Assembly (NCBI GenBank): GCA_020152595.1
Contig: JAIGNY010001174.1
Span: forward strand, 1,134,001-1,198,000
From: Chiridota heheva
Taxonomy: Eukaryota > Echinodermata > Holothuroidea > Apodida > Chiridotidae
Direction of reading: 5' to 3'
DNA: 64,000 bases
A program made the translations under genes and the position numbers. The notes under the pieces are model-generated. The model saw nothing but the letters and a program-made list of their open reading frames with translations. It was not told the origin of the DNA and made no database searches. Below are positions 8,955-64,000 of this stretch, piece by piece; the first letter of the stretch is position 1, and each line of letters starts with the position of its first letter.

Positions 8955-9015
8955 GGAGGAAAAGTGGGCCAGGAGAAGGTGCCGAGAGTGGCGGGGTTGA
9001 TGCCGAGATGGAGGT

Positions 9016-11085: not shown

Positions 11086-11456
11086 CAAGGGCCGAGAGAC
11101 CCGAGGCAGCTAGAAAAAAATCGCGGAACCACTATATGGGGACCGCTGTATTAGTAAACGAAGGGCGTGAAAAGTCGGGACAGAACGAGGGAAAATATAA
11201 TAGAAAAAGAAAAGAAACGATCTCACCGAGGATAAAGCCCATCCACGAAAAGAAAATCCAAAATGAAGTTATAAAACAAAAGGTGCAAATTGAGAGAAAT
11301 TGGAGCGAAAATAGTTTAGGAGAATAGGATCAGTTGTCACGCCAAGCCTCGTAGTAAACCTAGAATCGTGTTGTTTGTAGGAGAGCTTGGGGTCTAGAGC
11401 TAAACCTAGAACTTTGTGTGTTCAACTTTAGGACGAATTGCCATTGAGCACGAGGT

Positions 11457-12736: not shown

Positions 12737-12748
12737 GAAATCCTCACC

Positions 12749-13527: not shown

Positions 13528-13684
13528 AAGGAGGCAGGGGGTTATCTTGAGGAAGATCTGTTGGGTCTGAGTTGGCTTATTTTTTCTTTGGATCTGTCCC
13601 TGTTTCTTTGGGAACGGTTGTTTTTTAAAGTTGGACGAGAAGTATGTTCGGTATTAAACCGAACAATCCATGTTCTCGTCCGTG

Positions 13685-14850: not shown

Positions 14851-14880
14851 ATGAAAAAAAAACCAAGGGCCGAGAGACCA

Positions 14881-14891
14881 GAGGCAACTAG
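14881..14891. repeat. Target site duplication, left
   Basis: gaggcaactag, identical to 15,822-15,832. Together they bracket the nested LINE. Confidence 0.92.
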
Positions 14892-15821: not shown

Positions 15822-15832
15822 GAGGCAACTAG
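15822..15832. repeat. Target site duplication, right
   Basis: gaggcaactag. It lies inside the sequence that precedes ORF1 of the host LINE copy, where copy 1 shows the uninterrupted equivalent near 11,101-11,115. Confidence 0.92.
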
Positions 15833-16094
15833 AAAAAAAATCATGGAACTACTATAGGAGAACCGCTGTACAGGCACGAAAGTCTAGTCAAAACGGAAGG
15901 GAAAAAAAACAAAAGAAACAATCTCACCCAAAACAGATGCCCATCTACAGAGAGAGAATGCCGAAAAATGAAGGTATAAAACAAAATTTAGGTGGTAAAG
16001 TGCAAGGTGAAATGAAACGGAACGAAATAGTTGGAGAGAACAGAAACAGAAGTCACGTCGCTCTCGTTGCACGATAAAACATTATGAAACAGCA

Positions 16095-16576
16095 TTCACT
16101 TCTTATTCCGTTAAGGAGATATTCAAGTTTAAAGTTAAATTAGTGAAATTAGACTAGTTGTGACATCACAACCTCAGATTTCTCAAAATCTTGATGTATT
16201 CTATCATATTTTCCCAGTAATTTTGTGGCTTTAAAACTATAGGATATGTCAGGAAAGGAGTAAAACAGAATCGAGTAGGGATAATTATAATTTACCACAT
16301 GAAGAAGTTTGAGGGAAAATAATTCAAATAGTAAAAAAGTTAAATAAAGTTTCTTCAAAATACATTAACAATTGTTAAGAATGTGAGGATGAGGGTGCCA
16401 ACCTTCCACAGTAGACTTACTACATCAGTCATTTCTACACAGGTTAAACAGAACTTTAAACTTAAATATCTTCTGAACGGAATAAGATATTGAAGTAGCT
16501 TCTTACCCATCTTGTTTCTTTTGAGTCCCTCTTTCATACGATATCAATTTGCTTGACCACTGAACTAATCCTTTAA
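16095..16576. mobile_element. MITE family A, one end truncated
   Basis: The left end lacks the terminal block; it opens at ttattccgttaaggagatatt. The right end has ccactgaactaatcctttaa. The interior has tgacatcacaacctcagatt and, in reverse relative to the copy at 1041, gttaagaatgtgaggatgag. Confidence 0.85.
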
Positions 16577-42400: not shown

Positions 42401-45400
42401 CCTTCTTATGTTATGTAGATATACTTGATGAAATAATGCTGACTGCTATTAATGGAGTTGAGTAAACACAAACAATTACTGAGAGGAGTTTACTTACATA
42501 CTACTAGAAAAAGAAAGACGATTACAGCCATTACTGATATAATGATCCCTGGAACAACAAAAGACCAACCCCACGCTGTGTCGACAAAAGCACCCGCCAC
42601 GACGGAACCCAGTATGTTTCCAACGCTAGTGTGGCTGTTCCATACACCCATGATAAAACCCCGTCTGAATGCAAGAATATAAAAAACAAACATTATATAT
42701 CAGTAGTAACGTAATACATTATATATCAATTGTAACGTAATACACTATATATCAGTTGTAACGTAATACATTATATATCAATTGTAACGTAAGACATTGT
42801 ATATCAGTTGTAGCATAATATATTATATATTAGTTGTAGCCTTATACATCATTTGTAGCAAAATACATTATATATCAGTTGTAGCATAATACATCAGTTG
42901 TAGCCTAATACATCAGTTGTAGCATAATACATTATATATCAGTTGTAGCGTAATACATTATATATCAGTTGTAGCATAACACATTATATATCAGTTGTAG
43001 CATAATACATTATATATCAATTGTAGCATAATACATTATATATTAGTTGTAGCATAATTCATTATATACAGTATCAGTTGTAGCATAATACATTATATAT
43101 CAATTGTAGCATAATACATTATATATCAGTTGTAGCATAATACATTATATATCAATTGTAGCATAATACATTATATATTAGTTGTAGCATAATACATTAT
43201 ATACAGTATCAGTTGTAGCATAATACATTATATATCAGTTGTAGCATGATATATTATATATCAGTTGTAGCATAATACATTACATGTATATGTCAGTGGT
43301 AGATTAATACATTATATATCAGTTGTAGCATAATAAATTACATATCACATACTTCATATTAGTATGCCAATTACATACCTCACATTAGTATGTCCATTAC
43401 ATACCTCACATTAGTATGTCCATTACATACCTCACATTAGTATGTCCATTACATACCTCACATTAGTATGCCCATTACATACCTCACATTAGTATGCCCA
43501 TTACATACCTCACATTAGTATGCCCATAACATACAGTACCTTACATTAGTATACCCATTACATAAGATCAGTACACTTTCAAGCAGAATTTTGTTTGACC
43601 AAGGAAAGTTGTTGTTTTTTAATCATCATTTTCAGTTCACTTGTACATATTTATAGAGCACGTTTTGCTAAGGCTTTGAAGCACTGAAACTTGGTATGCC
43701 ATCACAAACAGAAACCTTTCTTATGTCCCTGGGAATTTCTTCTTCTTCTTATATATGACTATTTGCACAAGCTACAGTACCGCCCGCAATAAATTGGTCA
43801 TGGCAACGTGGAATATCGCGATGCCTCGTTAGTGACGTTAAAAAAAATTGACAAAAAAAACATACCCCAAAAGTCAAAGCATGACAATTCACGATAACCA
43901 CGTATGCCACGCAGCAATGATTTGCATAATATTCATTGTGACAGTTGCATGGCGGCCGTGGCGGCATGAAAAATGTTGAAAGGTTAGGTCGAAAATCATA
44001 ACATTGGTAATAACTTTAATATTACCGACGACGAGGCGTTGGAGTTTCGCAAGATTTGTTGCATGCAAATACTTTAAACCTTCAGATCAATAGCGTGTGA
44101 AATACACAATGGTCCATGCCGTTACTTGCTTTTTTAACTTGAAGCTTATTTTCATAAACTTTGAAGTATATCATTTCCTTAAAACTTTGTCATTCTTTTT
44201 CTGAATTTTTCTATGAATGTGCCTTTAGTTTTTCTCCAAACATTAATCTCCGGAAAGAATGTTTAGATAATGAGAACAGTTTTATTTTATGTAGCCTATT
44301 TTTAAACACGGCACACGCAACGGCCATTAACTAAAATGCTATCACATGATGAATTGCGAGACTGAAATATTTTAATTTGCCATGGCGCGGCGGCTTACAA
44401 ACCATCTTCCTGCACGCTCTAGACAGCATAGTCACATAGGCCTACATTATATTTGTTTGTCCTTGTGCCGATGAAAGTGAAAAATAAATTTAAAAAAATC
44501 TTTTTTATAATAATGTTGAAGATTTTGGCCCGTGGTTTAAATTTCAAAGGTGACCTATAAAATTCACAGAAATACAAATTCCCAACCCGATCTATTTTGA
44601 GAGTAACAAAAAATATGTACTTACTCATTTAGTGGAATTCTAAACTGAAATGCACAACTTTATTTACAATGTAATCCGATTATTAGTTATTTTGAACTTA
44701 AACGTACTCCATTTTTATGTTCCACGAGCTAAATATATTCCACAATAAATTACACCATTTAAATCAAGCTTTTTTAAATCCAAGATAATAAAAAAATATT
44801 AAAAAACAGGTCAATGTTTCACGAAGCTCCACAGTATTTTGCTGAAAACAGTAGCCACAAATATATGATGATGAATAACTTTTCTTAAGAACTGTCGGCA
44901 CTGATTTGCGCCCACCGTGAACGGTTTGTGAATTGTATGGGTCCAAATGTGATTTAAATACTTTAACAACAGTTCACAGAACTTTGCTGCAACTTTGTAG
45001 GAACTTGAAGGGAGGGGGGGGGGGAGGGAACTTGGTGAAAGTGTATAATTACTGTCGTCGTATGCTCTGCTTTTTCTGCGGTGTTAGTACATTTTACCTC
45101 TCAGTTTACCCGGAGCTGGGTTTTTTTTTCTTCAATTAAATGTTTGTGCATGGGTCATTTTAAAATTTATTTGGTGATATGTCAGTGATATCTTGTTTTG
45201 ATTATTTCTTAAAAAGTTACGTGACTCTTTTTGTTTGTATTATTATTTGGATTAAACTCCACACTACTCTGTAAGTTTATCTTTATTTCTTATTGTTCAA
45301 TTGAGTTGGGCCCCTATAAATTATTGTCACATTTATGAAAGAAATTAAAGCTTAATGTGGACGTCATTTTCAAATTGAATAATGTGGACCAGGATAATTT

Positions 45401-48400
45401 GTCTTACAAACTGTTTTGTTTGGAAATAGAAAAAAAATGTTGATGCCTATATCTAAATTAAATAAGTAGTGAATGGACGTGTAGGAACGTCCGCCACATC
45501 AAGCGGGGTGCTACATTGAAAGGACCACATGTCTTTAAGCCCAGGCGCGGACTAGTTTATTTCACCTTTATATATATTTTGGATGAATCTGAACATTTAC
45601 TATTGGCGTTTACAATTCCAGAACTTTAAGTCATTTACGAAGAATTTTAAATTCGGAAGATCACTGCAATAATTATTTATTATTCATGATGTTTTGTTTT
45701 TTCTTTATTTGAAGGTCTGGTATCAGAAGCTCAAGAAATTGGGTTCGGCTGCGAGGAAATTGAAATAAATCACACAATTTTAAGAGTGTCATTTCGTCTA
45801 CTTCGTAGTTCGCTCGTACCCTTCTTGGTTTTTATCTCTTTAAGTCGCTAGTTTTCTGAAGGAAAAAAAAAAATCCATACCCCTCTAGTCGATAGTAGAA
45901 ACTGATTTTAAATATTTGGCGTTAAAGATTAGGTTACAAAGAAGTCTGATCTGTACCATGTGTAAATTGCACCTTTTTCGTGATTTAATATACGCACAGC
46001 AAAATGGACTTGCTATATTATCACGTCCCATTTTAGTGATGTAAACATATACTTCTGGTATTTTTTTGCATTATAATCAAACGGTAGCACAACGAAAGTT
46101 GCAGTGCTACAGTGGGCCGATAACATTTTTTTTTTTGATTAGATTATCAAATGGGTGAATCGAATAAGCACAAACTGACAAAGTCGTTGCCCATTCCGTG
46201 ATTTGTGCACTTGTTTATGTAAATATTTCGCCCGCCACAGTGGTCACGATAGATTCATGATAGAGTTGCATCAATTATCTCGTTAATTAGCTACTGCTAC
46301 GGCACAGAATTTAGAACGAAATAGCGGCTATTTGAAGCTGATTTCTAACGTGACTAACGTGGTGTCACGATATTTCACATTGCCACGACCAATTTATTAC
46401 AGGCGCAGTACTGTATGTCTCGAAGACCCAACATTTAACTTGACTCGCTTTACATACACCGACAACAATAACCATCACCACAAATTAAACACTTCTTCAT
46501 TGGGCATGACTGAAGCCACACGCAACATGTCATCAAAAATGTTCTATCAATATTTGAAATACTTGTTGACAAAGACAATAATACACAAACAAAAATAACT
46601 AACTAACCATTATTCAACTTCTTTAGTGGACCTGAAAAGGTTATCAAAAGGGGGAGAGGGGGGATATTTGAAATACTTGTTGACAAAGACAATAATACAC
46701 AAACAAAAATGAATAACTAACCGTCATTCAACTTCTTTAGTGGACCTGATTTTTTTGCTGGGGATTTTTAAAAAAGGGAGGATTTCTTTTTGGAAAAAAA
46801 AAAAAGGCCAAAAATTTCACCTCCCAAAAAGAAGTTAAAATTGGCTGGAAAATGCCAAGGCATTTTTTCAGCCATTTTTTTTGGGCAGGAATTCCCCCAC
46901 CCCTCTTCAATTATTTTTGAGGGGGAATTTGATACTATGTGTGGGAAGCCTGCAATCAGGCACCAATGTGAACACTGCAGCCCAATCTATTCCAAATAAT
47001 CCAATAAGTTTTGCATCTCACTTACCTTCCCTTCCCAAACCAATTTGCAACAACCGCCACCACACTTGGCCATCCGGTGGCTTGAAACAGTCCTCCGATA
47101 ATCTGCATGAAATGAAATTTGTAATCAAATTCATAGAAACAAAAAACGCTGGTTGGTGAAGTTTAACTGCATCAGTGACATGGTCAAAACATGCTAGAGA
47201 GGTTCAATTAGATCAGTGGAGGAGAAAAGAGTGAGAGAAGGTAGTGATAGGGGTAGGATCGTAGACAGGTGTAAGGGGGAGGGGCCGGTCAGACGTCTGT
47301 TGTTGATGTGATGCAGGAAGGATAATTTTTCATTTATTTTTATTGAAAGAGCTCGGTGATGGAAGCAGAGGGATTGAGACGGGTCCTGTGGAGGGTCTTG
47401 AGGGGGAAGTCTATAAGAATGTGTCTGTGGCACCAGTGTTTCAAGTGTTCATGGCAATTAACAAAACTGTGGCAAATACAAAACTAAGATTCCTGCATAT
47501 TATCAAATAAAGGAAAAAAAAGACGTCCTATACAATGTACTTTCCACATATTGGTCTGACGTATGTTAAGAGTACTAACCATCTCCAACCACCTAGTTAC
47601 AAAAGTTTTGTTGAAGCACTCATAAAACTTACTTGTTGAAAATGTGATGCAATTATCAAAAATAATTTGTTTAAATTTAGTTATGTAATCTTGTATTGTA
47701 AGCTTCTTCTTTGAAAATTTGTTCCTATCAGTTTTCCTAACATGACCAGCATACATAGTCTACTTCAGAAGTGCGATGTCTTGTTCCTTCACTCTCTTCC
47801 AAAACATGTCTTCATATCCCTGTTTTACTGTCCACTACAATATTCAATGGCTGCAAGGTACAAATTATTTTTTTGAATACCTCAATTGACGTAATAGGCG
47901 CTCGTGGCACTTATGAAAAGAATTGCACCACTTTTTAGGCCTGAGGTTTCCTTATAATTAGCACTTATGCTATGGAGTCACGTACAAGAAATTATGTTAT
48001 CAGTAAACAAAGTAGTTTTGGTGGGCGCTTATTAGGACAGGGCGCTTATTAGGACAGGGCGCTTATTAGGACAGGGCGCTCATTAGGACGGGGCGCTCAT
48101 TAGGACGGGGCGCTCATTAGGACGGGGCGCTCATTAGGACGGGCGCTCATTAGGGACGGGCGCTCATTAGGACGGGCGCTATTAGGACGGGCGCTCATTA
48201 GGACGGGCGCTCATTAGGACGGGCGCTCATTAGTACGGGCGCTCATTAGGACGGGCGCTCATTAGACGGGCGCTCATTAGGACGGGCGCTCATTGGGTAC
48301 GGGCGCTATTAGACGGGCGCTCATTAGACGGGCGCTATTAGGACGGGCGCTCATTAGGACGGGCGCTCATTAGAGGGGGCGCTCATTAGGACGGGGCGCT

Positions 48401-51400
48401 CATTAGGACGGGGCGCTCATTAGGACGGGGCGCTCATTAGGACGGGGCGCTCATTAGGACGGGGCGCTCATTAGGACGGGGCGCTCATTAGGACGGGGCG
48501 CTCATTAGGACGGGCCGCTCATTAGGACGGGACGCTCATTAGGACGGGACGCTCATTAGGACGGGGCGCTCATTAGGAGGGGGCGCTCATTAGGACGGGG
48601 CGCTGATTAGGACGGGGCGCTCATTAGGATGGCGCGCTTATTAGGACAGAGCGAATAATATATAAAATATGGTATGCTTTCTGAGGGAGGTGTGGCTGTG
48701 ATGTTACTACTAGCTTGTCATTTCTACAATTACATGTACTTACTGTATTAGAACTTAAGCCTTCAATCTTTAGCGTGTTCCAAACGTGACTGCAATTATT
48801 ATTATTTATCTTTTTAAATCAATTTTCATAACTAAAATTCAAAAAAAAAAAAAAATCAACATAAGTTTGCAAATTTCAGGCAACAATTTTTTTTAAGCTT
48901 CTTTTGAGCTTGTAATTTTTCTTGTGAATAATGAAAATAGAGGTTTTTTTTAAATAATTAGATTGTTTGTGAAATTTCCTTTCCATTGATACCAGGTCTA
49001 AATGTTTTTCTCTCTCAAAGAAAAACATGCAAAAACAATGAATATAAAAAAGAAATAATCACCCCTGTAATTACTCACAAAAATTAAAGCTGTGTTTCCA
49101 GTTCGGTTGGAAAAAATCCAGTCATATTTTAAATCGCGTGAGTCTTTAAGGGTTAAAGCCTATTAGAGAATCTCTAAAAGGAAATGATTTTTTAACACTG
49201 TTCTGTATATTGTTCTCAATCTTATAAGATGAACATGATTGACCTCTGAACTTGTCCTTAAACAAATTATTTTTTTACAGAATTATGCCAGAAGTTGGCA
49301 CACTGATGGAAAAGCCACTGCAATTCATAGAGATCTTTTACATAAAACAAACATGTATAGCTATATAGTTATTTATCCAGACTCTTACCTGTATAATAAG
49401 AAAGAATGCAAAGGAATGTATGTTGTAAAAGTATGCCATGCCAACAGCAGCAGTGAAAACTCCGCTGAGCAACATTCCACCAGTCAGGAAATATCGCAGG
49501 TCCATTCGCTCAGCTATATGACCACTGAAAATAATGAAGTACATGATAATGTGAATAAAAGTAATAATGATAAATTACATGTCATATGTAAAGATTTTGT
49601 ATACAAGGATAAGATTTACAAATCAACCTGATAGTGCCTTGTCCACCTGCCACTGATCATGTATTTTGTCCACCCACGAATGATTTTTACAGGCACTGAC
49701 CACTGCATTTTGTCCACCAGGTACATGATCATTCACTGCATTTTGTCCACCAGGTACATGACCACTGCATTTTGTCCATCAGGTACATGACCACTGCATT
49801 TTGTCCACCAAGTACATGACCACTGCATTTTGTCCACCAGGTACATGACCACTGCATTTTGTCCACCAGGTATATGACCACTGCATTTTGTTAACCAGGT
49901 ACATGACCACTGCATTTTGTCCACCAGGTACATGACCACTGCATTTTGTCCACCAGGTACATGACCACTGCATTTTGTTCACCAGGTACATGACCACTGC
50001 ATTTTGTTCACCAGGTACATGACCACTGCATTTTGTCCACCAGGTACATGATCACTCACTGCATTTTGTCCACCAGGTACATGACCACTGCATTTTGTCC
50101 ACCAGGTACATGACCACTGCATTTTGTCCACCAGGTACATGATCACTCACTGCAGTTTGTCCACCAGGTACATGACCACTGCATTTTGTCCACCAGGTAC
50201 ATGACCACTGCATTTTGTCCACCAGGTACATGATCACTCACTGCAGTTTGTCCACCAGGTACATGACCACTGCATTTTGTCCACCAGGTACATGACCACT
50301 GCATTTTGTTTACCTGTACATTTATGGTTGTCCAGAGGAACATCAGGTCGTGGGGTAGATTACAGGTTGACCCAAAAGGTTGATGCGGGCAGACCTTATT
50401 CTTCTGTTATTTTTTTATTTTTTATTTAGGGCTGTCCAGATCTGATTATTGGGTGTTTTGGGCAGACGGACGAGTGATTAATCCATCTCTGTTTTAATTT
50501 TTATGGCTGAAAGTTCAAAAAGGGGGACAAATATTTTACAAAAAAACAATTGACTTAACATTTTAAAGACAATAAATTATTAGTTGGTTTGGTTTGGTTT
50601 GTTGAAGTTTAATGGCACCGCAACAAATTATTGAGGTGTGTTTTAAAGTGTGCCTGGTGCTTCCCTAGTGCTTTGTATCTGCTGTTGATCAAGGGATGGA
50701 CACATCTATCATTCTGCTTGCCTCGATTATGGCTTCCTTTTGTTCTTCTATGGTTTATATTTCATATCAATTTAGTTAATGCTGCTGCAACTCAAACAGA
50801 TATTTGAGTACCCACCATAGAATGTAAAAAACGTAGAAGGTCGAGCATTCTCCATTTACTATAATGCTACCCACATTGATTTAGAGAACTCACGGTACAC
50901 TGTGATATTGGGTCAAATTATTGGCGCCATGGTCTCCATAGTGCTCATCCCAATACATTCAATCCATTATGAAAACATCATCCAACAGATAGAACCATAT
51001 CAGTATTTTTCAATAACAGCATGACCTCACCGTCAACTTTACCAACAACATTGCAACAACACAAGATAAACATATCTATTGCAAGTTATTCAAATAACAC
51101 AAAATAAACAATGATCGCCACCCTTTGTTAAAATGATTTAACAATGCTATCACGAAACGCTTAATTTAAGAACACAGGTACAACGACGGACAGACATAAG
51201 ATCGACAACCAAGTCAATGTCCACGGCCTTTGACAAGATAAACAAGATAAATAAAAGATATATAGAGTTCAAGAAATACTAGGTGCAATCTGTTCTTTCT
51301 AAACTGAATTTCCATGCACATTTTCCATAAAAATGATGATTTATACTGTAGAAGTAAACTTTTTAAGATTTCAAAAGCAAAATTCCAGCATCTATTTGGG

Positions 51401-54400
51401 CAATGGAGTCAATACTTTTGATTTTTTTACTTTAAGTGGTTCTGCATGGGGGTCAGATCTTACCTTAAATATTTTATTTGAATTATTTGATTGGCAAAAA
51501 TGTACCTTTTTCTGCACAATTGGTTGCGAGAAAATCGCAAAAGAAAAAAGCATTTTTTCAGCTTGATGCAAAAATCCAGAATAAGGCTTAATACGCAATG
51601 ACGACATTTTGGGAATGACTGTATGTAAACAATGCATCGATGCCACATATGACGTGTGGCTACCATTGAAATTTCACAACTAGTATCAACAGCATCTCTG
51701 TTTGTTCTTCTAAAATATTACATTTTCCAAGCAAATATAAAACAAAATGCCACAGTGTTGTGTAGTTGGAGGATGCAGTAATATAAATTCTCAAATTAAA
51801 AGTCATTAATCAATGGCAAAGGGCAACAAAACGAGATAATTCTGGACGTGTTTTGTGCACTTGACATGAACCATGAGTTTTGGGGCTTACCGGGTACAGT
51901 GTCATATTCAGCTCATGCCAGATTGCTATCCCTGTTCTGTTCGATTTAAACAGCTTGACCGCATCATCTCTGACATAAAAATTAAACTGTTACTCGAGTA
52001 ATAAAATTCAAAGGAAAGAAACAGAGGAAGAAAATAAACTAGAATGGTAAATACCATCATGGTTCGCATGCCCATGCAAATTGACAGCCATATCATGACC
52101 CGACCAATTATACAAATGGCATCTAACACTAAGTTCCACATGGCATCCCATGTCCCACATGGCATCCCACCCCATGTCCCACATGGCATCCCACCCCATT
52201 TCCCACATGGCATCACCCCACCCCATATCCCACATGACATCCCATCCCATATCCCACATGGCATTCCACCATATCTCCCACATGGCATCCCACCCCATGT
52301 GCCACATAACATCCCATGTCCCACGTGGCATTCCATCATATGTCCCACAGTGCATCTGATCCTATGACCCACATGGCATTCCACCCTATGTCCCACATCC
52401 CATGTCCCAAATGACATCCCACCTCATGTCCCACATGACATCCCACGACTTGTCCCACATGGCATTTCACCATTTCTCCCACACAACATTCCACCATACA
52501 GTGTCCCACATGGCATTCCACCATATGTCCCACATGGCATCCCATGCTATGACCCACATGGATCCCATCCTACATGTATGTCCCACATTAATCCAACCAT
52601 ATGTCCCACATGGAATCCCTCCCTGTGTCCCACATCAGTGGCTTCCCACCTGTCCCAAATGGCATCCCACCATATGTTCCACAAGGTATCCCTCCCAATG
52701 TCCCATTGACATCCTACTTTATGTCCCACATGGCATTACATCCCATGTCCCCATGGCCTCCTACCCTATGTCCCACATAGCCTCCTACCCTATGTCACAC
52801 ATAGCATCCTACCTTATGTCACACATGGCATCCTACCTTGTCACACATGACATCCCAACCTTTGTCACACTCTTGTGTTACTGTGGCATCCCACCATGTC
52901 CCACATGGCATTCTACCCTGTCCCACATGGCATCCCACCCCATGTCCCACATGACATCCCATCCATAAGAAGTCTCATCCTAGCTATCAAATGTTTCCCA
53001 TATAACTTATATGCAAATGATGACATCCCATAGGACATTGCATCCCACCCTATGTCCTGCATGGCATTCATAAGAAGCATTCCACCATAAATCCTACATC
53101 TTATCCTGTTCCACAGCATATCACAGTCCCTGAATAAGTCCCATATACTAAGAAATCCTAGATACCACATATGCAAATGAGTTATTGAATAAGAAAAAAA
53201 GGTGGAGTCAAATAATTATGCCTGATTGGTTCGCATTATGCTTTGCATGCAAACCAATAAAAACAAGACTGTGAGATTCAAACTCAGAACCTCTCGCTCA
53301 AAAGACAAAGCTGACTGGGCTGCTTAATCAGTTAAAAATTTGTATAATTTATTTAGATATAGTGTGGAATATGATCGAACAAGGAAGAAATATCGATCAA
53401 ATAGAACTAAATTGTAATTATTGTCCATATGCCAAGCCGATCCTTTTAGCATATCAAAATTAAAAAATTAATTACCAAAATGCTCACAATTTCTTCGCAA
53501 ACTTTCAATTCAAGTGCAAAAATGCAAACAAAATTGCATGAATGAAGTATTAAGTTCATGTAGGCCTGTTGACTATTAAAACGTCAAGCAACAGAGACTT
53601 GCAGATTGATAAAGAAAAAACTTATATTTCATAAGACGTAAAAAAAAGAAGGTAGATGTTGTAACAAACACTTCAATTTAATTATGTTTAAGAAAATGTT
53701 GCTTGCAAAACAGTAAAAATTTCATGCCAACTCACACAGGCTTTGTACTGTAGGACTGTGTAAGGGTTGTAAGCCTGATTCTTCTTTCTTGTTTGCAAGC
53801 AGTTCAAATTCAAAAAGAATGACAGCCCTTTATTATGAGAATGTTCTTCATTCATACTGTAGCTTGAACTTGAAAATGACAAATTAAGATCTGGACAGCC
53901 CGAAAAACTTTCGCAATCAGACGCTATTTGTATGTGGTAAGTATGTGTGTGATGCATTGTTTACAATCAGCAGTCCCTGAAATGACGTAGCAAACTGTTA
54001 TGACATCACAAATCCCTTTCAATTTTTTTTTTTTTTTGAGTAAGCAATAAATGAAGTCTTTTTTCATCATGAAAATGGACTTAAAACCAATATTTCTTGA
54101 CGGAGGATATGAAAAACCTATATCAGGTTAAATCTCTAATTTTTTAGAAGGCATGGCAGGACCACTTTAATAGTAGGAAATCTAAAAACTGCATTGAAAA
54201 AGTACCATTTCAAGTGTATTTAAACAAAGAGTATTACAAATATATATATAAATATGCATCATTATTGATAATCAATTTTAATGTATTGCTAATCATTTTT
54301 ATAAAAATTGTAGCAAAACTGCTAATCAAATTTGTACAAACAAATTGCTACCTGGTTTAGTACCGTAATTTTCAGAAGTACACCAAAATTGCTCCAATTA

Positions 54401-57400
54401 CGATGCTAAGTAACAAAATCACGCAACCAGTATGGCAAAAGTATCAACTCCATTGCCCAAATAGACGTTGGAATTTTGCTTTCCAAATCGTGAAGTTTAG
54501 TTCTACAGTATAAATCATCATTTTTATAGAAAATGTGCATGAAAATTTGGTTTAGAAAGAAAAGAAAAGTTCCCATTAATGTCATTTAATCTTAACATTA
54601 CATAACTTTTTTGTCATACTCGCTACGGCTTTCAGTGAAAATCTTGCACACTGTGATACATCGGCGCCTCGCCGTTACCATTTTCAAAAGTACACCACCA
54701 CCCCGGAAATCCAGTTCATATCAGTCCTCTGGTAAAATGGCTGCAATGTTTGGGTAGCATACTGAATTTCAGCTCTGTTGAACACTTTTTGTTCGTTTAT
54801 TTTGCAATATTTTTTCTTTCTTGCAAAATTGATATGCCTCATCAGGTATTTAATAAGTAAATGTACTGATCACTCCAATAAAGTATTTTCACCATGTATT
54901 TTTTGGTCAATTTTACAACTTTTAAAACAGGTCTTGATCAAAGCCTATCATTATGTTAATGTCAGTTTCACTGTCAAGACTTGTTTACTACTGCACATCG
55001 TGGTGCATATCGCAAGTTGATACTCAGATTTTGACGAAATCAAAGTGCAAAATATCCCCATTCGGTAGTGATTACTGCGCATTTGTGATTCTCACATTTC
55101 AAAAGGATTATGCTAATTTGGTTAAGATTTTGTAACAGTCATTGAATGGAGTTTTGTCAGCCGAATGTGTGTGTGAATTAAATGATATTGATTTTCAACA
55201 ACAAGACTGACTATGAAAAATGATTATTCAAATTTAATACTTAGTACACATTCATTTGTGAACGTTTAGTGTATACACACTATACGGTCACAGCTCTAGT
55301 GCCATTCTCATTTGCATACACACATGTATACAAGAATAAATTAAAGTGTTCTTACCTGGCAAACATTCCAATGGCATATGCAAATAAGTATGCATAATCC
55401 AGACTGCCAAGAAGTTCTTTTGCATTTCCACCATCTAAAAAAAAAAAATGATGTAATAGCTAAAAATAGAGCAATGACTGAATAGCTAAAAAGAACAAAC
55501 TTCCTTGATGTATGTACAGTAAATCATTACAACTGCAGTAAGACACCAACCAATTTAAAAAGCTTGCACCTGAAAAACTTGTTCCATTACTAAATTTTCA
55601 ATGGTAAATGTCTGACCAGAAGAGGCCATTTTGACTGCTTTAGTTTGCACATGCCTGTAATGACATCACTGGCCGGCATCCATTCCTTAATCAAATATAT
55701 CTTTTTTATAATTAATAATGATAAGCAATTTATAACCTACTTTGAAAACCAAGGTTCATAAAATCACTTGTCCAGTTGCCCAGGACAACCAAAATCATTG
55801 TCAGGACAATCATAAGTCTAAATAAATATGCCTGGCATGCAGGCAAGCTCATCTCCAGTTGAACCACGTTTGAAACAATATTTTGAACCCACTATATACT
55901 GCATTACCATATTCAATGTATTAAGCGCCCCTGCTCTATTAAGCGCCCACCAGACATTGTTTTGGCTAATAACAGAAATTGCTTAAAGACCTACGATAAG
56001 TTCTGTTACATTATTTGCTTATTTTGCGTCATGATATTTTTGTGGAGGTACAGTGGTTGTTGTGAGGCTAGTATAGAACCAGTTCACACAATGAAGTGTG
56101 AAAAACACACTGTACGCAACACCAGACTTATTGGGAAGAAACTTTGGCCTTATAGAGTGGTGCAATTCTATTCCCGTAAGCGCCCCGGGCGCTAACGTCA
56201 AATAAGGTATTTAAAATTTCTTACTCCCTTCCATAAAGTCACCCTCACCCTGACTAACCAGACTTTTACCACCATAAGCTAAGTCAACCTCAGTTCACTA
56301 TCGGTTCAAATCACATAGTGCACATTTTCTAGTTTTGTCTGACTAACCAGACTTTTACCACCATAAGCTGAGTCAACCTCAGTTCACTATCAGTTCAAAT
56401 CACATGGTGCACATTTTCTAGTTTTAATTTTTTTCGCAGTATCCAAACGTACCACCTAGGAATTTTAAAGCGCTACATAAACTAATATATATGATATTGT
56501 TTGAGGATTTTTTTAAATATTCGCTTGGTAAACCTTCAAATCTTGATATCTCAGAAAGCACGGTTTTGCTGGTTGGTTTTTGAGCTATGTTAAAGGAGAC
56601 ATAAAGTCTGATATAATCCTTATTTCATATGATAGAGGATTACAATCTAAACCAAGTACCAAAAACAGCAAGTTAAAATCTCATTTCTATCTCAAGTTAT
56701 TCATCTTTAAAGTCAAGACACGGAGGCTGCCACTTTGCTCAATTCTGAATTGAAATCTTGTGAATGATGAAATTAGTTCTCCAAAATAGACTAAGGAATG
56801 CAATTTCTTTATAACTGTACATTATGTTTCCATTCCAAAATTATGTGACACAAAGTTTTAATAGCATGTTTTGACAATTCCATGTGTAGATTATAAAAAA
56901 ATACAAAGGATTCCAACATCCTGCTGGGCTGATGACATTTGCATGTTTTGAAATCAAAATGGCAGCTCCCATGCATGGTACTATTTAGTAGTGGGATTCA
57001 AGTTTTTAATAATTACAAAAAATGTGTTAAATTTATTCTTTGGTCAGAAGATTTGTTAGTTTTAATTCTATCCTATGAAATAAGGATTATGTCAGACTTG
57101 ATGTCTCCTTTAAACTGGGCTTCTACATGTGTTATATATAGAAAGTATACAATTTGGGGTTTATGTCTCAACTTTTCAAAGTACAGTTTAGAAGACTTGA
57201 GGGCACAACTTGCATGTTTCCATCAAGAGGGAGAGTTACACTTTAAAATTTTGACATTTATGTTTAAAGGATCAGTTTTGCAGGGTCTGGCAAGTTCATC
57301 TTGAGAGGTCAAAAAAAACAAAGTGGCAAAGCATTCCAAAATCATATTCAAGAAATATTTAAAGAGGTAGGTTCGTCTCAGTAAAATACGGTAAAAATGG

Positions 57401-63400: not shown

Positions 63401-63930
63401 ATTTTGCAATGCTTTCCTCACCATTTTAATTTCTTTATAAATCCTGTTTCGTATAAGATGAACATGCTTAACCCTGAACTAATCCTTTAAGGTATGACTT
63501 GACCGTGGATTGAACTCACAACCTTCCGGCTGGAAAGCTGGACGTGGGTGCTCTACCAATTGAGCTGACCAAATTATTTACAATAATAATTTACCAGTGT
63601 TTTTGTAAATAAGTCTACCACCTTACAAACAAAAAATTGCACTTTGCATGTTCAGTACCTGCCCTTAAAGTACCTAAAACCTCTCTTTGCATTATGACAG
63701 AAGTTCATAAAATTATCTTTCATCAACATTTATATCTATCTTCTGCATTTTCCATCTGTTTAAACTATTAAGATAAAACTGTACTTCTGCTTATAAGTCA
63801 ATATACCTTTGACACTCCAGCAAGTAAATAAAAAACTGTAAGTCTCACCTTCACAACACCTATAGGCTTTCTTGATATATGGTAACTCGTGTATGCAAAA
63901 AATGTCAAAACCAGAATGAAACCTTTATAC
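24301..63930 (-). CDS. SLC37A1/2: SLC37-family sugar-phosphate/phosphate exchanger, 14 exons, 5' end outside window
   Basis: Multi-pass major-facilitator transporter. Known SLC37 proteins exchange glucose-6-phosphate or other phosphate esters for phosphate, mostly at the ER membrane. Exons in transcript order: 63930-63849, 62429-62309, 55434-55356, 49524-49389, 47102-47026, 42664-42498, 39366-39326, 36280-36218, 34570-34480, 34199-34045, 32328-32280, 30917-30844, 27584-27399, 24420-24301. All junctions are GT-AG and all phases match, giving 479 codons plus one partial codon and a TGA stop. Family landmarks: SRKPIGVVK after TM1; [90 protein letters not shown]. The TM1-TM2 loop carries NCS, NTT and NGS sequons. 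From memory the human A2 protein is about 505 residues, so only about 20-25 N-terminal residues should be missing. The central TM6-TM7 linker is short. Assignment to A1 versus A2 is not resolved. Confidence 0.95.
24421..25480. other. Intron sequence, nothing recognised
   Basis: AT-rich intron DNA between the last two SLC37A exons. Only the start of a degraded copy of the 290-bp repeat (about 25,370) is visible. Confidence 0.5.
25480..26560 (+). repeat. Tandem repeat, unit about 280-300 bp, with microsatellite/hairpin end
   Basis: Anchor sequence ctcattaatatgcatgacatcacc recurs at about 25,494, 25,790, 26,073 and 26,373. Each unit also holds accatgggctatctgtgtacc, aagccccgcccac and gtacacaccagctaacat. 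The array ends in a (CA)n run at 26,468-26,500 and then gccatcatgactgcat plus an imperfect hairpin (ggttcctgatg / cgcatcggaacc). The same terminal order is present at 59,250-59,640, so it is a mobile unit with a fixed end. Confidence 0.85.
26561..27398. other. Intron sequence, nothing recognised
   Basis: No repeat family or coding signal that I can support. Confidence 0.5.
27399..27584 (-). CDS. SLC37A1/2: SLC37A exon: TM11-TM12
   Basis: 186 nt, 62 codons, phase 0. It starts [18 protein letters not shown], continues [18 protein letters not shown] and ends in a hydrophobic helix (VAELIGAL). Confidence 0.96.
27860..28087 (+). pseudogene. C-terminal fragment of a second LINE ORF2
   Basis: Plus-strand reading in three frames: [20 protein letters not shown], then [20 protein letters not shown], then [19 protein letters not shown]. 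This is the well-known tail of many LINE reverse transcriptases (LxYFGHxxR ... GRPRxTW ... RxAxDRxxW; RTE/CR1-like groups). It is unrelated to the RNase H-bearing family. Frameshifts and stops show it is dead. Confidence 0.8.
28260..28880. mobile_element. I-type LINE 3' end with inverted 5' part (twin priming)
   Basis: 28,260-28,770 is the family 3' end in minus orientation: tail at gtttgtttggtgaggtc, then frames equivalent to the last 90 residues. From 28,771 to about 28,875 the same ORF continues upstream but in plus orientation: AAKLAFNLP, then [20 protein letters not shown]. The break falls between QTxxxSQIDN and NKLHVIQP of the intact copies. Confidence 0.85.
29030..29470. repeat. Dispersed AT-rich repeat
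   Basis: Shares gattgtttgtgaaattt, ctttc, gataccag and cctgcaaaaacaatgaa with 48,840-49,060. It also shares the gtcaa(c/t)ttgtaa(t/g)tgattt ... ttttgct block with 39,785-39,870. Confidence 0.6.
29681..29731. repeat. 17-bp tandem repeat, 3 units
   Basis: Three units of aataactttgcatatct. Confidence 0.9.
29740..30843. other. Intron sequence, nothing recognised
   Basis: AT-rich; an 88-codon plus-strand ORF at 30,312-30,578 has no motif. Confidence 0.5.
30844..30917 (-). CDS. SLC37A1/2: SLC37A exon: TM10 region
   Basis: 74 nt: 2 nt plus 24 codons. It encodes [20 protein letters not shown] then SADL, one of the most conserved SLC37 blocks. Confidence 0.95.
31390..31958. mobile_element. MITE family A, near full length, in intron
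   Basis: Left arm ttaattcaggggtcaaacaa and gtgaagaaagcattcaaaaat; right arm gaatgctttcttcactatttt and gaccactgaactaaccctttaa. The halves pair over more than 120 bp each. The interior has two inverted cores around gacatcacaact. Confidence 0.88.
32280..32328 (-). CDS. SLC37A1/2: SLC37A micro-exon
   Basis: 49 nt: 16 codons plus 1 nt, encoding [16 protein letters not shown]. It matches the family's LYxYNxIG segment. Acceptor CACAG, donor GTAAG. Confidence 0.9.
32406..32560 (+). mobile_element. tRNA-derived SINE
   Basis: The head resembles a tRNA: A-box-like cgtggcagtgcg at 32,413 and a perfect T arm / B box (ctggg ttcaaat cccgg) at about 32,455-32,471. The D and anticodon arms do not fold well, so it is not a working tRNA. 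The tail (gctccacgactggttaataaaacgg) is non-tRNA. Confidence 0.6.
33358..33926. mobile_element. MITE family A, in intron
   Basis: Ends: gaaggattagttcaggggtcaa (left) and gacccctaaactaatccttataa (right). Includes the gactggtgcagtaagtctactgtgg and acaattgtttatgtattttg blocks also seen at 1225 and, reversed, at 16,380 and 58,150. Confidence 0.88.
34045..34199 (-). CDS. SLC37A1/2: SLC37A exon: TM8-TM9
   Basis: 155 nt: 2 nt plus 51 codons. It encodes [19 protein letters not shown] followed by a second hydrophobic segment ending AAAPL. The first two bases complete an ATG codon split by the intron. Confidence 0.95.
34480..34570 (-). CDS. SLC37A1/2: SLC37A exon: TM7
   Basis: 91 nt: 30 codons plus 1 nt. 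It encodes [19 protein letters not shown] and [10 protein letters not shown], a highly conserved SLC37 block. Confidence 0.95.
34571..35436. other. Intron sequence; one less AT-rich stretch
   Basis: 34,800-35,150 is more balanced in composition and holds overlapping ORFs on both strands (84 codons minus; 72 codons plus). The segment ggttaagctgatggtccca looks like part of a retroposon, but I cannot name it. Confidence 0.35.
35437..35668 (-). mobile_element. I-type LINE 3' end fragment
   Basis: Starts with tttgtttgtttggtaag, then aacggcaccacaacagcaagggtcaaattgtg in the same order as the 3' ends at 7840 and 14,900. It stops at the catgatg equivalent, giving a 230-bp tail-only insertion. Confidence 0.85.
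36218..36280 (-). CDS. SLC37A1/2: SLC37A exon: linker into TM7
   Basis: 63 nt, 21 codons, phase 0 at both ends. It encodes [21 protein letters not shown], equivalent to the family's AISFxxALxIPG start of the second MFS half. Confidence 0.9.
36358..36634. mobile_element. MITE family A, internally deleted
   Basis: Left terminal block gattcaggtcaagcaagtc and catgaaagaggac are followed directly by caaaatcgtaggacaaaat. The right half is complete to about gaccactgac. About 290 bp of the interior is missing compared with 33,358-33,926. Confidence 0.8.
36835..37030 (+). repeat. Dispersed repeat with C-rich block, copy 1
   Basis: Matches 60,400-60,645 in order: gctgtttcacag, C-rich 'cctgcccccctaagggtcca', an A/T tract, cttaat(t/c)aacctcataaa and gatacagaacacag. 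Confidence 0.8.
37372..38219. mobile_element. Non-autonomous hAT element
   Basis: 848 bp. Terminal inverted repeats CAGGGTTCTAGCTA and TAGCTAGAAGCCTG (one mismatch). Perfect 8-bp duplications tttacaag at 37,364-37,371 and 38,220-38,227. It is inserted in a copy of the 290-bp repeat, whose uninterrupted form elsewhere reads gtttacaagctctttt. There is no transposase; the 93- and 98-codon ORFs show no hAT motifs. Confidence 0.92.
38220..38870 (+). repeat. Two copies of the 290-bp repeat
   Basis: Anchors ctcattaagatgcatgacatc (38,405) and ttattaacatgcatgacatc (about 38,738) with intervening gcccgcccac/gccctgcctac and ctagctaacaacataattatac. Continues leftward beyond the hAT insertion to about 37,260. 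Confidence 0.85.
38911..39249. repeat. Direct duplication, period about 244 bp
   Basis: actctaccatgcggcaatat at 38,911 and actctaccatgcagtgatat at 39,155. Both continue tttgacc(c)cgcctcc and cattttcaaaaaagtgctgg over about 95 bp. Confidence 0.85.
39326..39366 (-). CDS. SLC37A1/2: SLC37A exon: short cytoplasmic linker
   Basis: 41 nt: 2 nt plus 13 codons encoding [13 protein letters not shown]. It matches the family's HPEDVxC stretch after TM6. Acceptor TTGTAG, donor GTATAA (a weak donor). Length and phase both fit the neighbouring exons. Confidence 0.85.
39430..39588. repeat. 53-bp tandem repeat, 3 units
   Basis: Units start at 39,430, 39,483 and 39,536 (acaaaagtgatgatatat). It sits just upstream (in transcript sense) of the short 41-nt exon. 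Confidence 0.95.
39900..41086. mobile_element. Second hAT-type element
   Basis: 1187 bp. Left end CAGGTTGTGACGGT; right end ACCGTCACAACCTTAG (13-bp inverted match with a 2-bp offset). Perfect 8-bp duplications tgtccatt at 39,892-39,899 and 41,087-41,094. No transposase. Left subterminal ttatccgttta is echoed (gggtaatcgattaacc) near the right end. Confidence 0.87.
41095..42079. other. Intron sequence, nothing recognised
   Basis: AT-rich. A C/A-biased stretch at 41,775-41,930 repeats ccatatgccac-like words but has no clean period. Confidence 0.5.
42080..42238. repeat. 80-bp tandem duplication
   Basis: ggattgatatccggcatgtca at 42,092 and ggattgacatccggcatgtca at 42,172, each followed by ttgataaatgag and gtggaatggtttgcct. 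Confidence 0.95.
42498..42664 (-). CDS. SLC37A1/2: SLC37A exon: TM5-TM6
   Basis: 167 nt: 1 nt, 55 codons, 1 nt. It encodes [20 protein letters not shown], a glycine-rich helix, WGWSFVVPG and a hydrophobic TM6. The donor T|GTAAGT is chosen over the upstream GTATG because it gives the phase needed for the next exon (TAC, tyrosine). Confidence 0.95.
42690..43345. repeat. Minisatellite, 26-bp unit
   Basis: Unit catta tatatcagttgtagcataata, about 25 copies with shortened variants (tagccttatacatc). It begins 26 nt into the intron upstream of the TM5-TM6 exon. Confidence 0.95.
43346..43570. repeat. Second 26-bp minisatellite, different sequence
   Basis: Unit cattacatacctcacattagtatgcc, about 8 copies, directly next to the first array with the same period. 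Confidence 0.93.
43571..46549. other. 3 kb intron stretch, no repeat family recognised
   Basis: No copies of the families seen elsewhere in the window. It contains CpG-bearing segments (43,780-44,060 and 45,470-45,560), a G-run near 45,015 and poly-T runs. A cis-regulatory role is possible but unsupported. Confidence 0.4.
46550..46749. repeat. Direct duplication, period 114 bp
   Basis: tatttgaaatacttgttgac at 46,550 and again at 46,664; both run to cttctttagtggacctga. Confidence 0.95.
46755..46990 (-). repeat. Dispersed repeat C, copy 1
   Basis: On the minus strand it reads like 62,610-62,850 and 59,025-59,240: cacata(t/g)tatc(a/g)aattccc then tcaaaaatgattgaag and a run of ggaattcc/ccaaaaa words. 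Confidence 0.7.
47026..47102 (-). CDS. SLC37A1/2: SLC37A exon: TM4 signature GWPSVV
   Basis: 77 nt: 25 codons plus 2 nt. It encodes [15 protein letters not shown] and [11 protein letters not shown]. The arginine codon is split across the intron (AG then A) and joins [11 protein letters not shown] in the next exon. Confidence 0.95.
47190..47440 (-). mobile_element. I-type LINE fragment (ORF2 C-terminus)
   Basis: The minus-strand frame reads [20 protein letters not shown] in one frame and [20 protein letters not shown] in another, equivalent to [20 protein letters not shown] of the nested copy. Diverged further than the other copies. Confidence 0.6.
47871..48690 (+). mobile_element. Repeat element whose end has grown into a minisatellite
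   Basis: 47,871-48,025 (tacctcaattgacgtaat, gaattgcaccact, ggtgggcgctta) matches, inverted, 55,915-56,215. 48,660-48,690 (atatggtatgc) matches the other flank of that copy. Between them lies the array at 48,025-48,655. Confidence 0.8.
48025..48655 (+). repeat. Minisatellite, 16-18 bp unit gggcgctcattaggacg, about 37 copies
   Basis: First three units read gggcgcttattaggaca (ancestral form). Later units read gggcgctcattaggac with 16-, 17- and 18-bp length classes; the last unit returns to cgcttattaggacag. GC-rich, unlike its surroundings. Confidence 0.96.
48840..49060. repeat. Dispersed AT-rich repeat, second copy
   Basis: Shares gattgtttgtgaaattt, ttgataccag and catgcaaaaacaatgaa with 29,260-29,460. 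Confidence 0.6.
49223..49262. mobile_element. MITE family A terminal fragment
   Basis: Only the right end survives: tataagatgaacatgattga and ctctgaact...ccttaaa. It lies about 130 bp from an SLC37A exon. Confidence 0.6.
49389..49524 (-). CDS. SLC37A1/2: SLC37A exon: loop 2-3 and TM3
   Basis: 136 nt: 1 nt plus 45 codons. It encodes the motif-A-like [17 protein letters not shown] followed by TM3, ending FFLIIQ. Donor GTAAGAG, acceptor TTTCAG. Confidence 0.95.
49690..50312 (+). repeat. Minisatellite, 29-bp unit
   Basis: Unit accactgcattttgtccaccaggtacatg, about 21 copies, with a 33-bp variant (atgatcactcactgca) recurring at intervals. ORFs on the minus strand are repeat artefacts. Confidence 0.97.
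50583..50650 (-). mobile_element. LINE 3' tail fragment
   Basis: ggtttggtttggtttgttgaag then tttaatggcaccgcaacaaa, matching the tail and first 25 nt of the I-type LINE 3' end. A very short, tail-only copy. Confidence 0.6.
50651..51292. other. Intron sequence, nothing recognised
   Basis: AT-rich, no repeats assigned. Confidence 0.5.
51747..51884 (+). pseudogene. THAP-like zinc finger relic
   Basis: ATG at 51,747 starts [12 protein letters not shown]. After a frame change come [20 protein letters not shown]. The order Cys-x-x-x-x-Cys, invariant Trp, basic stretch, Cys-x-x-His is that of a THAP domain. THAP fingers are found in P-type transposases and host factors. The segment between the second Cys and the Trp is shorter than usual, and there are stops. 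Confidence 0.4.
52132..53130 (+). repeat. Minisatellite, 24-bp unit (catcccaccccatgtcccacatgg)
   Basis: About 30 diverged units. Because 24 is a multiple of 3, all three plus frames stay open for long stretches (8-residue repeats such as HGIPPHVP), giving ORFs up to 188 codons. Decays gradually to the right. Confidence 0.93.
53262..53335 (-). other. Possible tRNA-derived remnant
   Basis: Minus strand: gaggttctgagtttgaatctc resembles a T arm / B box and agcagcccagtcagc an A-box region. The arms do not form a proper cloverleaf. Confidence 0.3.
54563..55355. other. Intron sequence, nothing recognised
   Basis: AT-rich; no families assigned. Confidence 0.5.
55356..55434 (-). CDS. SLC37A1/2: SLC37A exon: TM2
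   Basis: 79 nt: 2 nt, 25 codons, 2 nt. It encodes [20 protein letters not shown] and runs into IGMFAS, matching the family's start of TM2. Acceptor TTAG follows a T-run; donor GTAAGAA. Confidence 0.93.
55915..56215 (-). mobile_element. Seed copy of the 48-kb repeat element
   Basis: In inverse orientation it matches 47,871-48,025. At the position of the 48-kb array it has only two units (minus strand: ggtgggcgcttaatagagca, then ggggcgcttaatac), followed by the same flank (ttgaatatggtaatgc). Confidence 0.8.
56251..56424. repeat. 86-bp tandem duplication
   Basis: ctgactaaccagacttttac at 56,252 and 56,338; the two copies differ at only a few positions, so it is recent. Confidence 0.96.
56589..57113. 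mobile_element. MITE family B (TTAA-flanked palindrome)
   Basis: Ends: ttaaaggagacataaagtct on the left; agacttgatgtctcctttaa on the right. Inverted arms of about 48 bp (shared aatccttatttcata). 525 bp, no transposase. TTAA at both ends suggests piggyBac-type mobilisation. Terminal TTAAAGGA is shared with family A. Confidence 0.85.
57114..57894. other. Intron sequence, nothing recognised
   Basis: No repeat family assigned. Confidence 0.5.
57895..58356. mobile_element. MITE family A, left end truncated
   Basis: Opens inside the left arm (ctttaagtttaaagtgtaaa). It has the ccagattcctcaatctt and cattaacaattgttaagaatg blocks and a worn right end (cttatcaaatcctttaa). Confidence 0.82.
58357..59024. 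other. Intron sequence, nothing recognised
   Basis: No repeat family or coding signal assigned. Confidence 0.5.
59025..59240 (+). repeat. Dispersed repeat C, copy 2
   Basis: tgcacatattatcatattccc then actcaaaaagatttaaagggg, in parallel with 62,636-62,690. Confidence 0.7.
59250..59640 (+). repeat. 290-bp repeat unit with microsatellite/hairpin end, copy 2
   Basis: A single unit (aagccctgcccactatgcat ... catgacatcac) followed by a (CA)n/(CATA)n run at about 59,553-59,592 and then gccatcatgaccgcat and ggttcctgatgctatcgcatcagaacc. Same order and same end as 26,468-26,556. Confidence 0.85.
59641..60399. other. Intron sequence, nothing recognised
   Basis: No repeat family or coding signal assigned. 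Confidence 0.5.
60400..60645 (+). repeat. Dispersed repeat with C-rich block, copy 2
   Basis: Parallel to 36,835-37,030, with a longer C-rich segment (several ggatccgccctgccccct-like units). Confidence 0.8.
60905..61267. repeat. 15-bp palindromic minisatellite (tactgtacatgtaca)
   Basis: About 24 units built from TGTACA palindromes with 8-, 11- and 15-bp steps. Both strands read open in several frames (MYMYS/CTVCT-type ORFs), which are artefacts. A GGA-rich run (60,841-60,870) precedes it. Confidence 0.96.
61547..61592. mobile_element. MITE family A terminal fragment
   Basis: ttaaaggattagttcagtgg then ttgatcttatatgaaagaaag; the remainder is absent. Confidence 0.75.
61600..62110. repeat. Inverted repeat of about 110 bp flanking LINE pieces
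   Basis: 61,615-61,720 and 61,990-62,100 are inverse of each other (shared gaagtgttccaat, caacattgat, ccaaaaatt; about 80 percent by eye). The 260-bp centre holds two LINE-like pieces: gtggcaattattgcagagtgg (the PLCNNCH stretch) and ggttggttggtgggatttgaag... (a 3' tail). Confidence 0.7.
62309..62429 (-). CDS. SLC37A1/2: SLC37A exon: TM1-TM2 lumenal loop
   Basis: 121 nt: 40 codons plus 1 nt. It encodes the polar, cysteine-containing loop that starts GVLNRNCSE and ends DCWCCWKPF. Three N-glycosylation sequons (NCS, NTT, NGS) fit a lumenal position. The donor is GTAAG. Confidence 0.9.
62610..62850 (+). repeat. Dispersed repeat C, copy 3
   Basis: ggcacatattatcgaattccc, aaaaatgattgaaggtgg, a (ATA)n run and C-rich end. 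Matches 46,755-46,990 in inverse orientation. Confidence 0.7.
63051..63490. mobile_element. MITE family A, best-preserved copy
   Basis: 440 bp with intact ends: ttaaaggattagttcag at 63,051 and ctgaactaatcctttaa at 63,490, a perfect 17-bp inverted pair including the TTAA. The arms continue to pair imperfectly for over 120 bp. No ORF. Confidence 0.93.
63491..63572 (-). mobile_element. tRNA-like SINE head
   Basis: Minus strand: agctcaattggtagagc forms a perfect D arm and A box; ggttgtgagttcaatcc is a B box with a T-arm stem. The anticodon arm does not fold and there is no matching acceptor stem, so it is a tRNA-derived SINE or pseudo-tRNA. It abuts the MITE at 63,490. Confidence 0.55.
63849..63930 (-). 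CDS. SLC37A1/2: SLC37A exon (most 5' in window): TM1
   Basis: 82 nt: 1 nt plus 27 codons. The acceptor is GCAG and the donor GTGAG. It encodes a hydrophobic helix ([19 protein letters not shown]) ending in the family's SRKPIxxVK signature. It ends in phase 0. The start codon lies in an exon to the right of the window. Confidence 0.92.
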
Positions 63931-64000
63931 CTGCAAAAATAACAGAAAGAGAGACAATGTGAATGGAATATTTTGATTTTCTTACAAACATATCAAAATT

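Follow-up and report, generated by a model that had tools for sequence, protein, structure and literature searches.

A minisatellite between two units at the 3' end of a MITE-like element in Chiridota heheva, and arrays from the same element end elsewhere in the genome

Two copies of one element among SLC37A2-like exons

The stretch analysed here, called the window, comprises 64,000 nucleotides of the holothuroid Chiridota heheva (assembly GCA_020152595.1, contig JAIGNY010001174.1, positions 1,134,001 to 1,198,000 of the forward strand). It contains two copies, A and B, of a short element resembling a miniature inverted-repeat transposable element (MITE). Copy A carries a minisatellite of 38 units near its 3' end, and copy B has two units at the same position. 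Both lie among stretches similar to the glucose-6-phosphate exchanger SLC37A2. The features are given below in window coordinates (TRF, Tandem Repeats Finder; ORF, open reading frame); genome-wide refers to the assembly from which the window itself was taken (1.1 Gb, 3744 contigs).

47878..48674, plus strand: copy A, MITE-like element with TACC...GGTA ends and an expanded array (alignment to copy B and to the family majority)
47878..47966, plus strand: 5' end of copy A, terminal inverted repeat and subterminal palindromic unit (70 of 89 positions as in the family majority)
48023..48647, plus strand: minisatellite of 38 units, mostly of 17 or 16 bp (TRF; unit list)
48023..48076, plus strand: units 1-3, T-form CGCTTATTAGGACAGGG (unit list; the only place genome-wide with exact dimer matches)
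48077..48634, plus strand: units 4-37, C-form CGCTCATTAGGACGGGG and variants (18 of 18 genome-wide dimer matches)
48635..48674, plus strand: unit 38 (T-form), degenerate terminal unit and 3' end of the element (anchored alignment to copy B)
55905..56209, minus strand: copy B, two-unit MITE-like element (alignment; 258 of 296 aligned positions as in the family majority)
55931-55948 and about 55914-55930, minus strand: the two units of copy B
63798..63992, minus strand: ORF with SLC37A2-like exon, residues 19-50 (phmmer, E 2e-6)
55355..55450, minus strand: SLC37A2-like exon, residues 79-104 (phmmer, E 3e-4)
49338..49574, minus strand: ORF with SLC37A2-like exon, residues 102-151 (phmmer, E 9e-12)
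42490..42699, minus strand: ORF with SLC37A2-like exon, residues 176-230 (phmmer, E 8e-20)
near 34 kb, minus strand: SLC37A2-like match, residues 329-379

The minus-strand matches in the window follow the residue order of SLC37A2 (phmmer), and the ORF at 42490..42699 also resembles Pfam MFS_1 (E 1e-6, under the curated cut-off). Copy A lies between the exon matches for residues 102-151 and 176-230, and copy B between those for residues 19-50 and 79-104; since the flanking matches differ, the two would occupy different introns if the exons belong to one gene. They are separate insertions and not two states of one site, as they have opposite orientation and lie on opposite sides of an exon. An earlier note, made from the letters of the window, had proposed two copies of one element in this gene, which the significant alignments described below bear out. 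It had also seen in them the seed and the expanded state in one locus; both states are present, but copy B is a cousin and not the ancestor of copy A. The array in A would be intronic and is most likely neutral, and no sign of a function was seen.

The 5' flank of the array in A aligns with copy B over 93 columns at 73% identity (E 1e-9 against the window), a score reached by none of 1000 dinucleotide shuffles, and a stretch of 66 columns, reaching into the first units of A at its end, aligns at 74% (E 6e-5). The 3' side offers few positions, and a free local match of this side that omits the last unit is not significant, 752 of 1000 shuffles reaching the score; with this unit included the score was reached by 7 of 2000 shuffles, and when the alignment to B was anchored from 48634, by 0 of 2000. 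Compared with the family majority, copy A agrees at 44 of 53 positions just before the array and at 31 of 41 at the 3' end, beside the 70 of 89 given above for the 5' end, and it lacks about 110 bp of the middle of the element. A match of the flanks on both sides, as the earlier note had it, therefore survives proper alignment and comparison with the family, with the reservation that little sequence is available at the 3' flank. In the window, an nhmmer model built on the 5' part of A found only A and B at E < 0.1.

In array A, TRF reports a period of 17, 37.9 copies and 94% matches. Splitting at CGCT yields 38 unit starts, of which 23 have 17 bp, nine 16, four 15 and one 14, the final 26-bp piece running into the flank; the estimate of about 37 units at 48.0 kb was thus accurate. 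With 17/16-bp units in 38 copies the array falls under the description of minisatellites (variable number tandem repeats) given in one source, with units longer than those of microsatellites and up to about 100 copies (PMC6947457). Units 4-37 read CGCTCATTAGGACGGG(G) and variants, the C-form units forming blocks of 17 bp and of 16 bp in the interior, and unit 38 returns to the TTATTAGGACAG form. The succession described earlier, with T-form units first and C-form units later, is therefore right for units 1-3 and 4-37 and incomplete for the array, where the T-form marks both edges. Moreover, the T-form had been called ancestral; it is the edge form, but has itself been derived locally from the unit of the family, with GGACA in place of AGAGCA and 17 bp in place of 18. 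A C-form interior with T-form edges would be expected where units turn over more quickly inside an array than at its margins.

The units of array A are private to it. A genome-wide search for the C-form dimer, allowing up to three mismatches, found 18 matches, all of them inside the array. The T-form dimer has eight: two exact matches and one T/C junction lie in array A, and the other five, at two or three mismatches, lie in other places, so that at zero to one mismatch both matches (2/2) are in A. Because the inner-unit dimer is confined to this array, array A grew in place. The pairwise difference between units 4-37 averages 8.6% of 17, compared with about 12% between a copy and the family majority and about 21% at the 5' end of A. 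The array contains 70 CpG dinucleotides at an observed/expected ratio of 1.26, against 0.49 in the rest of the window, which fits recent amplification and absence of methylation alike. Folding of the array strands gave z -0.57 on the plus and -1.19 on the minus strand for the C-form and z -2.56 for the T-form, and folding of copy B gave z 0.04 for its two units and z -3.14 for its 5' palindrome; the array scores entered no conclusion.

The element family and the number of units at its 3' end

A genome search with copy B gave 3334 first-look candidates and one with the flank of A gave 614, of which 40 from each were scored. Thirty loci were cut out per search; among these 60 rows L035 and L049 are one locus and L046 is copy A, and the sample leans to B-like copies, B being one of the two queries. 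The family majority, built from 29 copies, is 325 bp long, which is short, as for a MITE. It has terminal inverted repeats of about 26 bp, TACCGTATTCGACGTAATAAGCGCCC at the 5' end and TACCGTATTCAACGTATTAAGCGCCC read inwards from the 3' end; in single copies these are not significant by shuffling (156 of 2000 for B, 124 of 2000 for A). The core GCGCTT/AAGCGC occurs in it five times, in both orientations. Of the 37 copies listed with both of their ends, 27 have TA at each; no longer repeat was seen outside, and this TA could either belong to the element or result from target-site duplication. Identity to the majority averages 87.9% (range 72.6-93.8%) among the 55 copies for which more than 200 positions were aligned.

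No transposase gene was found by Pfam inside copy B, the copy searched. Its longest open frame, of 102 amino acids from stop to stop, has in Pfam only a sub-threshold match to DUF5389, of unknown function (E 0.015, 15.8 bits against a cut-off of 25), and a 63-amino-acid frame on the other strand has no Pfam match. The element is dispersed in high copy number, as indicated by the 3334 candidates and by 675 matches to one 3' end pattern (see below). A second subfamily, with a different inner segment, includes L057, L063, L065, L074, L100 and L104; it forms a supported group (97/100) with two expanded copies. Searches of viral_contigs gave no matches with two patterns and, with two further ones, 2 and 12 stretches resembling unrelated microbial repeats, for which blastn against copy B found nothing at E up to 1. 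Eight metagenomic viral contigs (L003, L005, L006, L008, L010, L011, L013 and L014) carry 15-bp repeats around AAGCGCC, possibly coding repeats, and these too lack a blastn match to B. A literature search for five motif strings found no paper, which is weak evidence as sequences rarely stand in running text.

At its 3' end the element has two direct 9-bp copies of GGGCGCTTA, 18 bp apart. One belongs to a subterminal unit, u1 (TTATTAGAGCAG), and the other to a unit within the terminal repeat, u2 (TTAATACGTC), and the spacing is nearly constant. In copy B the units are likewise 18 bp apart, in agreement with the two units reported at 55.9 kb. Scored by alignment, 48 of the 51 scorable distinct copies other than A, B included, have two units; the others have one (L071), three (L017) and six (L035). 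Seven further copies could not be scored, and A failed the automatic score, its terminal unit being degenerate. Given these 48 copies, two units are most likely the ancestral state, and copy B is not a collapsed array. The unit counts that the earlier note had asked for are thus available for a sample of genomic copies, and they speak against its own counter-reading of the seed copy as a contracted array.

The distribution was also assessed genome-wide with two end patterns of equal length, differing at four places and allowed up to three mismatches each. The two-unit end matched 675 times and the end with an inner-type second unit, indicating three or more units, 147 times, or 18% of 822 matches. 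The latter figure is slightly high: among the first 100 matches listed for this pattern, 82 have two mismatches or fewer, and a few of the 18 with three mismatches look like two-unit ends or lie inside arrays. Reversed-pattern controls of both ends gave no matches, and a tandem doublet of another 18-bp stretch of the element, for which one stretch in one phase was tried, had no match in the genome.

Arrays at other insertions

A three-unit pattern matched 2281 times in the genome and its control not at all. Twelve array loci were chosen from 100 listed exact matches among the 2281, a choice that favours canonical units, and two long arrays were added. Element sequence precedes the array in 10 of the 12 loci (L094-L097, L099-L101, L103-L105), while the stretches taken for L098 and L102 have none before it, and the two long arrays, of 202.5 and 64.3 copies, are still flanked by element sequence at either end. 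The canonical unit GGGCGCTTATTAGAGCAG is common to many arrays. We walked 13 loci unit by unit (the ten with element sequence minus L101, the two long arrays, L017 and L035). Ten finish in a unit of the terminal-repeat type, degenerate in L094 and L095; two stretches stop inside the array, and L103 does not finish in such a unit. Since 10 of the 13 walked arrays finish in this way, the array grows between u1 and u2. In 11 other arrays of at least five units, the first unit is on average 1.91 edits from the family unit and the interior 1.03, the first being more distant in eight arrays, less in two and equal in one. Sizes of 2, 3, 6, about 10, about 18, 38, 64 and about 200 units are visible in one genome; the same element end grew into arrays elsewhere, and such births are not special to the SLC37A2-like gene.

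A tree was built from 61 element bodies, 48 with two units and 13 expanded (A and 12 others). From the 60 rows, L046 (copy A, entered from the window), the duplicate L049, the seven unscorable copies and the one-unit L071 were set aside, and L096, L098, L101 and L102 were excluded because they aligned weakly. The 13 expanded rows require 13 state changes, and shuffled labels average 12.0. The scatter of expanded copies on the tree suggests that expansion occurred repeatedly and independently, a result supported in kind and not exactly counted.

Two other readings bear on this scatter. According to the first, one array-bearing copy transposed and spread, so that the arrays would not be independent births. 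The sharing of GGGCGCTTATTAGAGCAG by many arrays would fit, and the tree leaves room for some shared origins, its starred branches forcing four changes; but the canonical unit is simply the u1 of the family, unit numbers differ between arrays, and individual arrays have variants of their own (AGAGCAA and CTTTATTAG in C868, TTATTTGAG in C761, the C-form in A). In addition, expanded copies occur among two-unit ones on both sides of the single deep starred split (97/100). We regard a common origin of the arrays as unlikely. Equally improbable in our view is that extra end units might be favoured as transposase binders, short expansions being selected in transposition and long arrays arising as by-products. 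This scenario has been suggested for Tetris and Galileo (PMC4079207), and the five occurrences of the core in the family majority would be in line with it, but copies that move better should form clades, and the expanded copies look scattered.

Arrays also occur at the 5' end, in 4 of 58 loci, with a unit made of terminal repeat and host flank. Unit lengths are 30, 40, 78 and 47 bp in L021, L024, L044 and L075, respectively, and in L024 TRF finds 30 repeats at 100%. The arrays of L024 and L044 stop in the middle of the subterminal palindrome, that of L075 lies beside it and that of L021 inside the end. Chance alone should, by a simple calculation, put about six array boundaries into 58 elements, which makes four cases unremarkable; the sole notable point is that the boundaries bunch in the first 40 bp or so of the element. 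An exact genome-wide pattern of two 5' terminal repeats 20-50 bp apart had 38 matches against 36 for the backwards control, and these 38 sit in five places (15 in the L075 array, 17 in C790, three in C3737, two in C3539 and one in C2889). Of the 37 matches to a pattern for duplication of the 5'-side unit, one has two mismatches and the other 36 have three; they resemble reads into arrays of the 3' type. Both ends might give birth to arrays, the 3' end by its direct repeats and the 5' end at or near a hairpin-forming palindrome, and thousands of insertions would then be scattered seeds deciding where new minisatellites appear. While the 3' half of this proposal is well supported, a widespread 5' hotspot is not, given 38 matches against 36 in the control, and the proposal as a whole is doubtful. 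Contigs C790, C3539 and C3737 hold other arrays whose unit includes the terminal repeat.

A proposed route from two units to an array, and related systems

The best overall explanation, to which we assign a probability of roughly 0.85, is that a MITE end with direct repeats has bred arrays at some of its insertions, and in place at A. The seed would be a DNA transposon remnant of about 325 bp with the direct repeats GGGCGCTTA in u1 and u2 at its 3' end. Slippage or unequal exchange between the two 9-bp repeats would duplicate u1 at some insertions, and the longer homology thus created may then let the array lengthen between u1 and u2. At A the unit would first have been altered locally to the 17-bp T-form, and a C-form variant may then have taken over the interior, leaving the T-form at both edges. 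Origin by slippage between direct repeats of 5-10 bp is the model of Haber and Louis (1998), as cited in PMC6947457. The pair of 9-bp repeats 18 bp apart is what a slippage or unequal-exchange model needs, and, as it predicts, inner units are similar to u1 and a single terminal unit remains; gene conversion could likewise have supplied the molecular step.

Several observations weigh against this explanation. The unscored copy L047 resembles three to four degenerate units (by eye; TRF, 3.4 copies of 18 bp) and is possibly expanded, so that 48 of 51 may be slightly flattering. The last inner units of the other arrays are not clearly more diverged than the interior (mean 1.36 edits, including the cut or degenerate ends of L099, L100 and L103). 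The tree is star-like and weakly supported, five starred inner branches forcing only the four changes mentioned. Tandem arrays are widespread in this genome, 30 arrays of at least five copies filling 8.9% of the 185,796 bases in the 58 loci, and part of the effect is therefore general. Assembly errors could account for part of the single-base length differences among G-rich units, and as neither an allele pair nor a second individual was seen, no expansion step was observed.

Two last alternatives have very little in their favour. Capture of a pre-existing satellite or other array by the element at A, a process proposed for miDNA4 of Xenopus (PMC12628747), is hardly credible here, as the array stands between u1 and the terminal unit, is built of u1-like units, and has no outside match to its C-form dimer (up to three mismatches) or T-form dimer (zero to one). 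Just as implausible is a long array ancestral to the element with contraction in most copies, B included: tandem arrays do contract and L071 has a single unit, but two units prevail in the sample, u1 and u2 differ in sequence at a nearly constant spacing, the units of A are private to it, and repeated contraction to a single state is unlikely.

Tandem repeats that originate in MITEs or at transposon ends are already known, and the present element is a further case. In Xenopus, miDNA4 of X. tropicalis (Scalvenzi and Pollet 2014) and Xstir (Hikosaka and Kawahara 2004) are described as MITEs with tandem repeats (PMC12628747, PMC9659126), and Satovic and Plohl (2013) reportedly described such MITEs in the clam Donax; as here, the element is non-autonomous, a motif exists in few or many tandem copies, and arrays grow inside. 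In contrast to these accounts, the monomer here has 18 bp and is located at the terminal repeat, and most sampled copies document a state of two units beside arrays of up to about 200 units at the same site. Tetris, with its TIR-220 repeat in Drosophila virilis, also began with duplication of part of a terminal inverted repeat that grew into arrays, and unequal crossing-over has been proposed for it (PMC4079207). It is described as a foldback element with 220-bp units in beta-heterochromatin, whereas the unit here has 18 bp, lies at the 3' end and, for A, probably within an intron.

Minisatellites derived from Alu and other elements are comparable in that, in the account of PMC6947457, short flanking direct repeats seed the first duplication and longer homology serves later growth; here the source is a DNA-transposon end and not a short interspersed element, and the seed has apparently been reused at more than 100 places in the genome. 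Finally, the bacterial MITE BrickBuilt of Porphyromonas gingivalis (PMC4596501) likewise contains a minisatellite, with tandem 23-bp units between leader and tail and inverted-repeat ends, but is reported as found 19 times in one strain.

The value of the present element lies in the number of cases that one defined seed has produced in parallel, a single genome showing both how arrays begin and what they become. The start of an array is usually guessed from the finished array; here the seed, its position and intermediate sizes are visible. Rates of first duplication, their dependence on the integrity of the seed, turnover at edges and in the interior, and effects of genomic context become countable, and the element end offers a ready-made series for the study of tandem repeat birth.

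Outside the element copies, a scan of the window against Rfam gave nothing at gathering scores, and a tRNA scan of 40-64 kb found none. Non-long-terminal-repeat retrotransposon pieces lie on the minus strand at 8000-16100; their matches to reverse transcriptase and RNase H exceed the Pfam cut-off, and one to an endonuclease falls slightly short of it. Further minisatellites were found by TRF at 5226-7535, 42690-43564, 49690-50309, 52136-52966 and 60908-61264, and 13 chosen TRF array intervals total 6204 of the 64000 bases. Six other arrays of the window in which CpG was counted have 0 to 2 (four arrays), 5 and 64. At 56250-56425, adjoining copy B, an 89-bp unit stands in two tandem copies (96%, TRF), which is possibly another array at its first step.

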